This document shows positions 22,096-24,632 of a DNA stretch of 64,000 bases, piece after piece; within the stretch, counting starts at the first letter, position 1, and every line of letters begins with the position of its first letter. The stretch is from Streptomyces violaceoruber (GTDB lineage Bacteria > Actinomycetota > Actinomycetes > Streptomycetales > Streptomycetaceae). The stretch lies in NCBI GenBank assembly GCA_000720805.1, contig JODI01000014.1:124001-188000 (forward strand). Direction: 5' to 3'. Below the pieces are notes generated by a model. The model saw nothing but the letters and a program-made list of their open reading frames with translations. It was not told the origin of the DNA and did no database searches. Both the position numbers and the translations under genes were made by a program.

Positions 22096-22154
22096 CACTC
22101 TCCCTGAATAAATTCGCTCGCCCGACCCGAGGCCGTTCTCCTAAGGTTATGCAC

Positions 22155-22292
22155 GTCCAGGTGCGAAGGCAGGACCTACTTCCACTGATAATGGGGCGGC
22201 CGCGGGTTCGAGTCCCGCCACCGGTACAACAGGCCGGTGTAGCTCAGGGGTCAGAGCACCTACGTCGGTTCCGCCGACTTCGATCTCTGGAC
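22155..22292 (+). ncRNA. Y-RNA-like ncRNA A with permuted tRNA-like module
   Basis: The ends pair as GTCCAG (22155-22160) with CTGGAC (22287-22292). An internal loop GTG/ATCT follows, then CGAA/TTCG (22164-22167/22279-22282) and GGCAGGAC/GTTCCGCC (22168-22175/22268-22275). Inside, read 5' to 3', are a T-arm GCGGG-TTCGAGT-CCCGC (22202-22218), an acceptor-like stem closed on itself (CACCGGT 22219-22225 with GCCGGTG 22233-22239), TA at tRNA positions 8-9, and a D-arm GCTC-AGGGGTCA-GAGC (22242-22257). This is tRNA order cut at the anticodon. A possible -10 (TAAGGT) lies at 22142. Bacterial Y RNAs encoded beside Ro genes are known to mimic tRNA. Confidence 0.82.
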
Positions 22293-22310
22293 ACCACAAC
22301 TTCATCGCAC

Positions 22311-22382
22311 CTCCCGGTGCGCAGGCTGCGGCTACTTCCCTTGCACAGTGAATCAGTGCCGCAGCCGATCCGATCTCGGGAG
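22311..22382 (+). ncRNA. Y-RNA-like ncRNA B, simple hairpin without tRNA module
   Basis: The same stem plan as RNA A but only 72 bases. CTCCCG pairs with CGGGAG (22311-22316/22377-22382), with the internal loop GTG/ATCT. CG/CG follows, then CA/GATC, then a 9-bp helix GGCTGCGGC/GCCGCAGCC (22324-22332/22358-22366). The 25-base terminal loop starts TACTTC. The shared 5' block GGTGCGCAGGCTG and 3' block GATCTCGGGA match RNAs A and C. It may be a minimal Ro-binding RNA, or a processed segment of one long transcript, since only 18 and 14 bases separate it from its neighbours. Confidence 0.7.
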
Positions 22383-22396
22383 GCGCGGCAGATGGT

Positions 22397-22548
22397 GGGT
22401 GCCCGGTGCGCAGGCAGCGGATACTTCAGGGGCCTGGTCAAGAAATTGGTGCGGGTTCGAATCCCGTCATCGGCCCGGGGCCGATGTGGCGAAAAACGGA
22501 AGACGCGCCAGGTGTAAGCCCGTCGCCGACCCCTGACCTCGGACACCC
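22397..22548 (+). ncRNA. Y-RNA-like ncRNA C with permuted tRNA-like module
   Basis: The outer stem is GGGTG-C-CCG/CGG-A-CACCC (22397-22405/22540-22548), with loop GTGCGCA against a GACCT-containing strand and a helix GGCAGCGG/CCGTCGCC (22413-22420/22520-22527). Inside are an anticodon-stem equivalent CCTGG/CCAGG (22433-22437/22508-22512), a T-arm GCGGG-TTCGAAT-CCCGT (22451-22467), and a perfect 7-bp acceptor-like stem CATCGGC/GCCGATG (22468-22474/22480-22486) closed by CCGGG. TG at positions 8-9 and a D-arm-like GCG/CGC (22489-22491/22504-22506) with GG in its loop complete it. It ends about 50 bases before the rsr ATG. Confidence 0.8.
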
Positions 22549-22600
22549 TCCATTTGTCGCGCCTCCCTCCGAAACAGCAAAGAATTCGGGGGAATTCATC

Positions 22601-24181
22601 ATGGCGCGGTTCAACTCCAAGGCGGCCCGGGCTCAGCCCACTTCGCGTGTCACCTCCACGGGGCGTGTGCTCCGTACCTACGAGGGCGGCCGCGGCCGCG
22701 AGCGCGACACACGTTCCGAGCTCTTCCTTCTGGCGGTCGCCAACTTCGTCTCGCAGCAGACCTTCTACGAGAGCGGCGCGGACCGCGACGACCGGTTCGC
22801 GAAGCTCGTACGCCGGCTCGCCGTCGAGGACCCGGCCTGGACCGCCGGCCTGCTCGGCTGGCTGCGCGGCGAGGGAAACCTCCGTACGGCCTCCCTCGTG
22901 GGCGCCGCCGAGTACGTGAAGGCACGCCTCGACGCGGGCGCCACCGACGGCCCGGCCAACCGGCAGGTCGTGGCGTCCGTTCTGCAGCGCCCCGACGAGC
23001 CGGGAGAGCTGCTCGCGTACTGGACGGCGACGTACGGTCGCAGCGTTCCCAAGCCCGTCAAGCGCGGGATCGCCGACGCCGTACGCCGCCTGTACCACGG
23101 CAAGTCGCTGCTGAAGTACGACACCGCGTCCAAGGGCTACCGCTTCGGCGACATCCTCAACCTGGTGCACGCGGCCCCGGACCCGGACAAGCCGTGGCAG
23201 GGCGAGCTGTTCCAGTACGCCCTCGACCGCCGGCACCACCCGGACACGGCGGTGCCGCCCGCGTCGAACCGCGTGCTCACCGCGCACCGCGAGCTCATGG
23301 CGCTGCCGGTGGCGGAGCGGCGCGCGGTCGTCACCTCGGAGGCAGGCGCCGAGCGGCTCGCGGCGGCGGGGATGACGTGGGAGGCGCTGGCGGGCTGGCT
23401 CCAGGGGCCGATGGACAAGGAGGCCTGGGAGGCCGTGATTCCGTCCATGGGACCGATGGCGCTCGTCCGCAACCTGCGCAACTTCGACGAGGCCGGGGTC
23501 TGCGACGAGGTCGCGGCGCGGGTGGCGGCCCGGATCAGCGACCCGGCGGAGGTCGCGCGCTCGCGGCAGTTCCCGTTCCGCTACCTCGCCGCGTACCAGC
23601 ACGCCCCGTCGCTGCGCTGGTCGTACCCGCTGGAGCAGGCGCTCGGCCACTCGCTGGCCAACGTGCCCGCACTGCCCGGCCGGACGCTGGTACTGGTCGA
23701 CCGGTCGGGCTCGATGTGGGCGCCGCTGTCCGACCGCTCGGAGCTGAAGCGGGCCGACGCGGCGGCGATCTTCGGCACGGCGCTCGCGCTGCGGGCTGCG
23801 GACGCGGACCTCGTCGAGTTCGGCACCGGCAGCAACAAGATCAAGTACCGCCGGGGGGAGTCCGTGCTGAAGATCCTCGGCCGCTTCGGCGACCTGGGCG
23901 GCACCGACACCACCAAGGCCGTGCGCCGCCACTACAAGAAGCACGACCGGGTGCTGATCGTCACCGACGAGCAGTACGCCTTCAGCCACCACGGTGACCC
24001 GACCGAACAGGTCCCGGCGAACGTGCCGGTCTACACCTGGAACCTCGCCGGATACCGGGCGGGCCACGGCCCGTCGGGCAAGGCGAACCGGCACACCTTC
24101 GGGGGGCTTTCGGACGCGGCCTTCCGGATGGTCCCGCTGCTCGAAGCGGCACGGGACGCCGACTGGCCCTGGGCTGCCTGA
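22601..24181 (+). CDS. rsr: Ro60 ortholog (TROVE + vWA domain), Y-RNA-binding protein
   Basis: A 526-residue Ro protein of normal length. The N-terminal two thirds are the helical TROVE ring (TRSELFLLAVANFVSQQTFYESGADRDDRFAKLVRRLAVEDPAWTAGLLGWLRGEGNLRTAS). From about residue 360 comes a von Willebrand A domain with an intact MIDAS: DRSGS at 367-371 and GGTDT later. Ro rings bind Y RNA on the outside and misfolded RNA ends in the cavity; in Deinococcus the Y RNA tethers Ro to PNPase. ATG 22601 has GGGGGAA upstream. The three Y-RNA-like genes directly upstream are its likely partners, and a UUCG-loop terminator follows. Confidence 0.96.
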   Translation: MARFNSKAARAQPTSRVTSTGRVLRTYEGGRGRERDTRSELFLLAVANFVSQQTFYESGADRDDRFAKLVRRLAVEDPAWTAGLLGWLRGEGNLRTASLVGAAEYVKARLDAGATDGPANRQVVASVLQRPDEPGELLAYWTATYGRSVPKPVKRGIADAVRRLYHGKSLLKYDTASKGYRFGDILNLVHAAPDPDKPWQGELFQYALDRRHHPDTAVPPASNRVLTAHRELMALPVAERRAVVTSEAGAERLAAAGMTWEALAGWLQGPMDKEAWEAVIPSMGPMALVRNLRNFDEAGVCDEVAARVAARISDPAEVARSRQFPFRYLAAYQHAPSLRWSYPLEQALGHSLANVPALPGRTLVLVDRSGSMWAPLSDRSELKRADAAAIFGTALALRAADADLVEFGTGSNKIKYRRGESVLKILGRFGDLGGTDTTKAVRRHYKKHDRVLIVTDEQYAFSHHGDPTEQVPANVPVYTWNLAGYRAGHGPSGKANRHTFGGLSDAAFRMVPLLEAARDADWPWAA

Positions 24182-24299: not shown

Positions 24300-24632
24300 C
24301 CCGGGCTCGTGGAGCTGGAGAAGGTCCTGGAGCGCTTCGGTGACCTGGGCGGCACCGACACGAGCGGGGCCGTGCGCCGGCGCTACCGCGGGTGCGGCCG
24401 TGTGCTGATCGTCACCGACGAGCAGTGCGCCGCCGGCCGTCACGGCGGGCCGACCGGGCAGGTTCCGGCCGGCGTGCCGGTCTGCACCTGGAACCTGGCC
24501 GGTCACCGGGCGGGCCACGGCTCGTCGGGCCAGGGCAACCGGCGCACCTTCGGAGGTCTGTCGGACGCGGCGTTCCGGACGGTCCCGCCCCTCGAGGCCG
24601 CTCGGGACGCCGGCTGGCCGTGGGCTGCCTGA
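24300..24632 (+). pseudogene. Truncated tandem copy of the rsr 3' end
   Basis: The frame ending at 24632 repeats the last ~110 residues of the Ro vWA domain: RFGDLGGTD, RVLIVTDEQ, VPVCTWNLAGHRAGHG and FGGLSDAAFRTVPPLEAARD, closely matching the upstream gene. The TROVE ring and the DxSxS half of the MIDAS are absent. No start codon with a ribosome site opens this frame; upstream codons in it are an out-of-frame reading of rsr. Both the stop context and the hairpin after it are duplicated, so this looks like a tandem duplication of the gene end followed by decay. A short standalone protein cannot be excluded. Confidence 0.8.

Follow-up and report, generated by a model that had tools for sequence, protein, structure and literature searches.

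Organization of the ro60 locus

The window, i.e. the whole stretch of 64,000 nucleotides of Streptomyces violaceoruber DNA that was analysed, contains a ro60 (rsr) gene flanked by phoX upstream and a GntR-type regulator gene downstream, and three Y-RNA-like units lie in tandem directly in front of ro60. The features of this region are the following:

22142..22147, forward: TAAGGT, a -10-like hexamer upstream of the array and the predicted cluster promoter, from the hexamer position in relatives
22154..22293, forward: unit 1, Y-RNA-like gene with a four-arm circularly permuted tRNA module (model R2, 165.2 bits; covariation reached by 0 of 500 shuffles)
22180..22196, forward: unit 1, anticodon-like arm UUCCA-CUGAUAA-UGGGG with a 7-nt loop (conservation and covariation)
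22197..22201, forward: unit 1, variable region of 5 nt, tRNA positions 44-48 (5 nt in 74 of 74 parsed modules)
22202..22218, forward: unit 1, T arm GCGGG-TTCGAGT-CCCGC (Rfam YrlA match, alignment and covariation)
22219..22239, forward: unit 1, acceptor stem of 7 bp, CACCGGT / GCCGGTG, closed by the loop ACAACAG, no free CCA end
22240..22257, forward: unit 1, U8-A9 and D arm, GCTC-AGGGGTCA-GAGC
22310..22383, forward: unit 2, minimal Y-RNA-like unit made of a Ro-type stem and an upper hairpin, no tRNA module (model R1, 81.7 bits)
22378..22567, forward: long helix of 22 pairs around unit 3 (22378-22400 with 22545-22567), predicted processing stem (duplex -46.9 kcal/mol)
22399..22546, forward: unit 3, Y-RNA-like gene with a permuted tRNA-Leu-like module (model R3, 121.6 bits; covariation 0 of 500)
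22438..22449, forward: unit 3, predicted variable-arm hairpin UCAA-GAAA-UUGG, weak in the window genome (longer linker in Leu-type relatives)
22451..22467, forward: unit 3, T arm (Rfam YrlA match, alignment and covariation)
22468..22486, forward: unit 3, acceptor stem CATCGGC / GCCGATG with the loop CCGGG (from the sequence)
22487..22506, forward: unit 3, U8 and tRNA-Leu-like D arm, GCG ... CGC (fixed letters of two tRNA-Leu D arms)
22601..24181, forward: ro60 (rsr), 526 aa, TROVE domain and vWA-like C-terminal part (Pfam, AlphaFold2 model, PDB matches)

The original prediction of three end-paired units with shared blocks ahead of a Ro60 gene was borne out. The 5' blocks were found at the predicted places in units 1, 2 and 3 (GGTGCGAAGGCAG, GGTGCGCAGGCTG and GGTGCGCAGGCAG, respectively), TACTTC was present in all three alike, and the 3' blocks read GATCTCTGGA, GATCTCGGGA and GACCTCGGAC; the 3' consensus proposed earlier fits units 1 and 2, and the block of unit 3 is one G short of it. 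With boundaries taken from the covariance models, the gaps between the units are 16 nt (units 1-2) and 15 nt (units 2-3), and unit 3 ends 54 nt before the ro60 start codon. In each unit the 5' and 3' ends pair into a conserved and irregular lower stem, as judged by alignment and covariation, and the upper parts differ (a four-arm permuted tRNA, none, and a Leu-like permuted module), in keeping with the small RNA family that had been proposed.

The TROVE domain of the ro60 product scored 47.5 bits against a Pfam cut-off of 23, its AlphaFold2 model had a pLDDT of 84.5, and all 13 PDB chains matched at E <=0.001 were TROVE/Ro60/Rsr proteins, including 1yvp and 2nvo. The identification of the downstream gene as Ro thus stood: the gene is intact and encodes a Ro60 orthologue. 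NCBIfam gave no name for any of the three proteins tried. Further downstream, positions 24318-24629 hold a partial second ro60 3' end, 75% identical to residues 423-526, which looks like the remnant of a tandem duplication; a Pfam search of 24309-24629 gave no match.

Comparative analysis of the three folds

Covariance models were built from 31 unit 1s (R2), 32 unit 2s (R1) and 33 unit 3s (R3); rows L001, L005, L060, L065 and L067 had been dropped from one alignment before counting. The copies of the window genome scored 165, 82 and 122 bits for units 1, 2 and 3, respectively, these copies being part of the training sets. For covariation, each alignment was compared with 500 column shuffles by five measures. 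In unit 1, with 37 consensus pairs and 99.4% of the cells paired, 18 of the 37 pairs had changed on both sides (shuffled mean 2.9) and none of the 500 shuffles reached any measure; columns 31-41, for example, pair as CG in 25 sequences and as GC in six. In unit 3 (23 pairs, 97.7% paired) both-side changes were found in 12 of 23 pairs (shuffled mean 4.8; 0/500). In unit 2 (18 pairs, 97.6% paired) they were found in four of 18 (shuffled mean 1.6; 0/500), and the alignment exceeded all 500 shuffles on four of the five measures, 'further pair types' being reached by 451 of 500. The covariation therefore backs the folds predicted for all three units, that of unit 2 least, and the stems, whose lack of conservation would have spoken against the original prediction, are conserved.

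Folding of single sequences by minimum free energy did not produce the full cloverleaf of units 1 and 3, so the cloverleaf in these units rests on comparison. Nothing in the window reached the Rfam gathering score, and ARAGORN called no tRNA in the window as written, i.e. no cloverleaf in linear order with a free 3' end. The search with the YrlA model (RF02553), which had been suggested as a check, gave nothing at its cut-off of 69 and two matches below it, with 30.6 bits (E 1e-4) for unit 1 and 13.8 bits (E 8.2) for unit 3; no match to unit 2 was listed. The YrlA plan, consisting of a permuted T arm, a closed acceptor stem and a D arm, is seen in units 1 and 3 and not in unit 2. Sub-threshold Rfam matches to tRNA-Sec, tmRNA, MIR1437 and CC3513 were set aside as weak or spurious.

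Unit 1, a complete permuted tRNA

The arms of unit 1 follow each other in the order anticodon-like arm, variable region, T arm, acceptor 3' half, loop, acceptor 5' half, U8-A9 and D arm. Both-side changes were found in six of the seven acceptor pairs, and all four pairs of the D arm are formed in 31 of 31 aligned sequences, where they are invariant and hence without covariation. A set of 77 distinct unit-1-type modules was collected, 69 of them assigned by position and eight by the loop pattern itself. All but three (L034, L037 and L044) could be parsed, and each of the 74 parsed modules had a 7-nt loop, five stem pairs and a 5-nt variable region. Among the 69 assigned by position, 66 were parsed, and all 66 had five of five anticodon-stem pairs and U33. 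The loop letters are nearly fixed across the 74 modules (U33 and A38 in 74, C32 in 73, A37 in 68), and positions 34-36 read CAU in 35, GAU in 19 (as in the window), CUU in nine, GUU in six, GCU in two, and CCU, CGG and GGU in one each. Since positions 34-35 vary across species and U33, A38 and the 7-nt loop are fixed, the arm is more likely a mimic of shape than a decoder, and with its acceptor ends joined by a loop and no CCA end the module should not be charged like a tRNA.

After rotation in silico, ARAGORN called a tRNA in 61 of 61 distinct unit-1 cores, and in none of the 61 when the cores were left unrotated or when their anticodon-variable-T segment was shuffled. These cores are a non-random sample, since the selection pattern required a T arm, a D arm with TAGCTCA, six or more acceptor pairs and an anticodon-like signature in the loop, and the controls were drawn by the same choice; modules with fewer than six of the seven acceptor pairs were left out of the rotation tests of units 1 and 3. 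The calls comprised 24 Met-CAU, 15 Ile-GAU, nine Lys-CUU, six Asn-GUU and seven others, the window's core being called tRNA-Ile(GAU); these names refer to the triplet only and imply no charging. A further 14 of 14 rotated modules were called tRNA, namely eight orphan Y RNAs and six units from other actinomycetes, the latter picked from 13 units at three loci. Unit 1 has at its core all the arms of a tRNA, the anticodon arm among them, in a complete circular permutation.

A tertiary contact, which lies outside the secondary-structure models, was followed in 185 distinct modules of units 1 and 3: positions 15 and 48 read G-C in 91, A-U in 90 and otherwise in four. When unit 3 was placed on the Ro60 tree, five of six independent pairs agreed with this pairing and none opposed it (p 0.06), so that part of the signal is shared descent. 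The tree itself resolves little, as seen from the change counts, which were 20 for D-arm type (40 shuffles: mean 27.7, minimum 23) and eight for 15-48 (mean 9.7, minimum 8); a Fisher value obtained from the modules is accordingly not treated as free of the effect of descent.

The unit-1 model also gave a partial match (model positions 27-105, 78-79 nt) at a second place in many of the 101 Streptomyces genomes. Two such places, in the window genome and in G080, were opened, and each was the junction between two tRNA-Asn(GTT) genes separated by 4-5 nt; the idea that these matches are free-standing copies of the module was consequently rejected, and the tally of 97 of 101 genomes with unit-1-model matches includes such junctions and is not a count of Y RNAs. 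The arm order across the junction is exactly that of the unit-1 module, which suggests, without proving it, that the permuted module arose from a tandem-tRNA junction.

Unit 3, a partial tRNA mimic with Leu-like features

Unit 3 carries D, T and acceptor arms and no clear anticodon arm, and is thus a partial mimic. All seven acceptor pairs are formed in 91 of 108 distinct modules. Sorted by D arm, these 108 comprise 64 of the class-I kind (GCTC/GAGC), 38 of the Leu kind (GCGG or GCGA), to which the window's unit 3 belongs, and six others. A Leu D-arm pattern searched with at most one mismatch in the window genome found tRNA-Leu(CAG), tRNA-Leu(TAA) and one non-tRNA place; its loop is one base shorter than the D loop of the window's unit 3, which is itself not matched. 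At up to two mismatches there were 18 matches versus 41 for the backward control, so only the best matches carry weight.

The kind of D arm goes together with the length of the linker before the T arm, which was 20 nt or more in 33 of 38 Leu-kind and in none of 64 class-I-kind unit 3s. The two features changed together in 11 of 12 phylogenetically independent pairs (p 0.001). The inserts folded with a mean of -6.5 kcal/mol versus -2.8 kcal/mol after shuffling; in the window the linker folded alone gives a structure other than the predicted hairpin. We take unit 3s of this kind to mimic a long-variable-arm tRNA. After rotation, 79 of 103 unit 3s were called tRNA by ARAGORN, at least 14 of these without a defined anticodon, a figure that stands without a shuffled control; the window's own unit 3 gave no call when rotated.

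Two further forms of unit 3 were observed. At L016 (1684-1866) the start of the D arm (GATGTGTCAGAATTC-like) is repeated several times, and at L058 and L059 the unit-3 core equals the unit-1 core (TTCCACTGTTAATGGGG...), a sign of module exchange between units.

Unit 2 and its reduced form

Unit 2 keeps the irregular lower-stem sequence of units 1 and 3 (CCCGGUGCG ... GAUCUCGGG), even where it is reduced to a mini-hairpin. The reduced form (for example CCTCCCGGTGCGA...TGATCTCGGGAGG) replaces unit 2 in 13 of the 80 named Streptomyces loci; by eye, it occupies the middle place in 13 of the 14 loci that have units 1 and 3 only, and the remaining one, L167, has a divergent longer form there. At L070 (4820-4919) a unit-2-type RNA with an extra hairpin, GCGGGGATCGAACCCCGC, which is T-arm-like when read from the other strand, adjoins a four-arm unit; no Ro60 match was found in this 10-kb locus.

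Promoter and processing signals

A sigma-70 consensus scan of the window found no promoter at this place, so a standard -35 box is missing and the promoter is put forward from the hexamer. In 135 regions upstream of the first stem (L067 being unusable for these counts), TANNNT was found at -15 in 84 and at -28 in 27, double counting being possible, and only three of 192 internal units had it in the 45 nt before them. The unit spacing and the presence of a -10-like hexamer almost only before the first unit point to one precursor RNA. Among the loci with units 2 and 3 only, 12 were inspected, and in 11 of them unit 2 is immediately preceded by TACAGT (in L111 another stretch was inspected), so that unit 1 behaves as a cassette between the promoter and unit 2.

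The helix around unit 3 was evaluated in 117 loci, where the mean energy was -36.7 kcal/mol (sd 5.0) for the locus' own flanks, -32.2 (sd 6.7) with those of other species and -20.1 for shuffled flanks, the means being compared by value with no significance figure. The 5' strand of this helix overlaps the 3' strand of unit 2, which makes the hairpin of unit 2 and the long helix mutually exclusive. From these predicted elements one transcript is likely cut into three, and we infer that the precursor is processed, perhaps by RNase III.

Distribution and co-occurrence with ro60

A Ro60 protein search gave a match in 68 of 101 genomes of the genus, some of them short and partial, and the locus samples comprised the DNA around 66 places and 80 named Streptomyces loci. 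With score limits set by eye at the gap in the scores, 51 of the 80 named loci had unit 1, 65 had unit 2 and 76 had unit 3. All three units were present in 34, units 2 and 3 in 28, units 1 and 3 in 14 (13 of these being the loci with units 1 and 3 around a mini-hairpin), units 1 and 2 in three, and none in one, L171, which begins inside the gene. S. coelicoflavus NBRC 15399 (L122) is an example of a full set, and S. lincolnensis L4 (L130) of units 1 and 3 with the mini form of unit 2. A closely spaced set of three had been expected to be unusual, which these counts contradict, as do three Ro60 loci of family f17 (L225, L226 and L227), where five, four and four units, respectively, recognised by the motif GGTGCG...TACTTC, adjoin ro60. 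When rotated, the modules of a single array resemble tRNAs of more than one kind, for example Glu-CTC and Asn-GTT in L226. Within the class, families f14, f17, f18, f19 and f26 had full-length R2 matches scoring at least 60 bits. The Rfam YrlA model reached its cut-off in none of 118 genomes of the class and gave a weaker match in 25; among 14 control genomes seven had a weak match and none exceeded the cut-off.

At the level of the order, TROVE was found in 111 of 197 genomes. Full-length unit-1-model matches were listed for 102 of the 111 TROVE-positive versus two of the 86 TROVE-negative genomes, with a threshold of about 63 bits and weaker full-length matches uncounted in both groups; among the matches listed, nine TROVE-positive genomes had no full-length one. 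The two TROVE-negative genomes were G360, with a remnant, and G276, with an orphan-type RNA. In the G360 remnant (L204), by eye, the 5' half of unit 1 and the 3' half of unit 3 are fused at the T arm, and ro60 is deleted except for its last codons, into which the fused remnant runs. G289 (L221), marked as the same species as the window, has no array and only the C-terminal end of ro60 (residues 437-526), with an unrelated stretch of about 350 bp between phoX and the ro60 3' end and further insertions downstream.

Orphan Y RNAs lie away from ro60 in eight genomes (L071-L078). They have a tRNA-Glu-type D arm (GTCGTCCAGCGGCC...) in a four-arm permuted module and, by eye, a TANNNT hexamer just upstream in all eight. 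No neighbour gene shared across the eight loci was found, apart from one weak pair with 31% identity.

Discussion

Comparison with known systems

The closest known relative is YrlA (RF02553; Salmonella YrlA, PDB 6CU1), which likewise lies beside Ro60/Rsr, ends in a long paired stem and carries a tRNA-like module whose T arm, closed acceptor stem and D arm come in permuted order. In the parts of the sources consulted, 6CU1 is described as superposable on tRNA when circularly permuted (PMC11472068), for YrlA no arms other than D, T and acceptor are named, as in the Rfam consensus, which has no anticodon hairpin, and the module is reported to be modified by DusA and TruB (PMC8394870). Compared to YrlA, unit 1 adds a full anticodon-like arm and a 5-nt variable region, unit 3 has a Leu-type D arm and an insert in the variable region, unit 2 is without a module, and no unit reaches the Rfam cut-off.

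In the Ro60-Y RNA-PNPase complex (RYPER) of Deinococcus radiodurans a Ro60 orthologue is likewise encoded beside Y RNAs, and a function as tether and gate is suggested by analogy; the locus described here differs in having three tandem RNAs of three kinds, and a contact with PNPase is putative, by analogy alone. The available parts of two papers describe a bacterial Y RNA as the tether of Rsr to PNPase (PMC8394870; PMC4726728). The Salmonella operon rsr-yrlBA-rtcBA, by its description, also holds rsr together with more than one Y RNA; there, according to the part of the source seen, the Y RNAs follow rsr, and competition with an anticodon nuclease, i.e. a decoy role, has been suggested for YrlA (PMC7790460). 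In the array described here, by contrast, the Y RNAs precede ro60 and the neighbours are phoX and the GntR-type regulator gene.

The permuted order of tRNA arms is also seen in circularly permuted tRNA genes, which are processed to working tRNAs; here, in contrast, a loop within a Y-type stem connects the two acceptor ends. The occurrence of Y RNAs in tandem is not in itself novel: Chen et al. reportedly described in 2014 that some species have several Y RNAs, with a tRNA-like domain in at least one per species. The portions of the literature consulted contained no mention of a four-arm module, a Leu-like unit or the gain and loss of modules, and the four-arm form may already be in print; among the papers covered by the search there was nothing on Y RNAs of Streptomyces.

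Possible function and alternative explanations

The original prediction had missed the permuted-tRNA nature of the modules and the pointer to a single precursor given by the spacing and the first-unit hexamer. Taking as a basis what was observed in the sequences, i.e. the units, their covarying stems, the permuted order, the tRNA tertiary signals, the first-unit hexamer and the co-occurrence with ro60, we consider it probable that the locus comprises three tandem Y-RNA-like genes, one with a permuted tRNA, one a bare stem and one Leu-like, which would be made as one transcript, dock on Ro60 and act as recruiters or decoys of tRNA enzymes. The array would be transcribed as a unit and cut into three RNAs, with the long helix around unit 3 as a candidate site for a double-strand RNase. 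By analogy with known Y RNAs, the shared lower stem of each unit would dock on Ro60 and the tRNA shapes would bring in, or block as decoys, enzymes that recognise tRNA; unit 2, having no module, may gate the Ro60 ring and bring no effector. The anticodon arm of unit 1 fits a role as decoy for an anticodon nuclease better than would a module without such an arm. That each RNA tethers a different effector, as had been surmised originally, is possible.

A somewhat unlikely alternative is that the units are ordinary YrlA-type tethers linking PNPase to Ro60 as in Deinococcus, with the anticodon arm and the Leu-like features as tRNA leftovers without a role. Such a function is known for Rsr, Y RNA and PNPase (PMC8394870; PMC4726728, both as far as seen), and the module mostly matches the YrlA plan; a leftover would, however, be expected to decay, and the anticodon-like arm is intact in all 66 position-assigned parsed modules and shows compensatory changes in the unit-1 alignment, and in 11 of 12 independent pairs the insert of unit 3 goes with the type of D arm.

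The preferred reading of recruiters or decoys can also be extended: an actinomycete Ro60 may carry a set of decoy tRNAs, complete, uncharged, permuted and of several kinds (Asn/Ile/Met-like, Leu-like with a variable arm, and Glu-like), captured from a tandem-tRNA junction and serving to bait enzymes of tRNA cleavage, repair or modification, those dependent on the anticodon arm among them. This extension is tentative, and we hold it to be rather unlikely in its full form.

Unit 2 could be a processing stem between units 1 and 3, leaving two Y RNAs only. Its replacement by a mini-hairpin in 13 of 80 named loci and the ability of its 3' strand to pair instead downstream of unit 3 would fit such a role, but a mere RNase site would have no need of the irregular lower stem of units 1 and 3, which unit 2 retains even in its mini form, and we regard the proposal as unlikely. 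Still less probable is that the array serves the ro60 mRNA as a structured 5' leader, which Ro60 would bind to regulate its own production, making separate RNAs unneeded. The -10-like hexamer ahead of the array, with almost none ahead of the internal units, and the 54 nt between unit 3 and the ro60 start codon speak for a leader; against it stand the orphan Y RNAs, which are built alike, lie away from ro60 and have their own TANNNT (eight of eight, by eye), and the Salmonella Y RNAs, which follow rsr in the part of PMC7790460 seen. The leader and the reading of three Y-RNA-like genes are not mutually exclusive. An origin as decayed tRNA genes that lie near ro60 by chance, suggested by the tRNA-like arms and by the absence of an ARAGORN tRNA call in the window as written, was rejected as having practically no likelihood, being contradicted by the covariation, the genus-wide conservation, the joined acceptor ends, the Ro-type stems and the co-occurrence with ro60.

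Implications

Because none of the 118 genomes of the class reaches the cut-off of the Rfam model, RNAs of this group are probably absent from genome annotations. The natural variation among the loci, in the presence of unit 1, the size of unit 2 (full or mini) and the kind of unit 3 (class-I or Leu-like), provides ready comparisons. Bacterial Y RNAs have been described, in the part of the source available, as mimics of part of a tRNA (PMC8394870); a Y-type RNA with every tRNA arm in permuted order, next to a sibling resembling a long-variable-arm tRNA, suggests that one Ro60 may receive different tRNA-handling enzymes through different Y RNAs.
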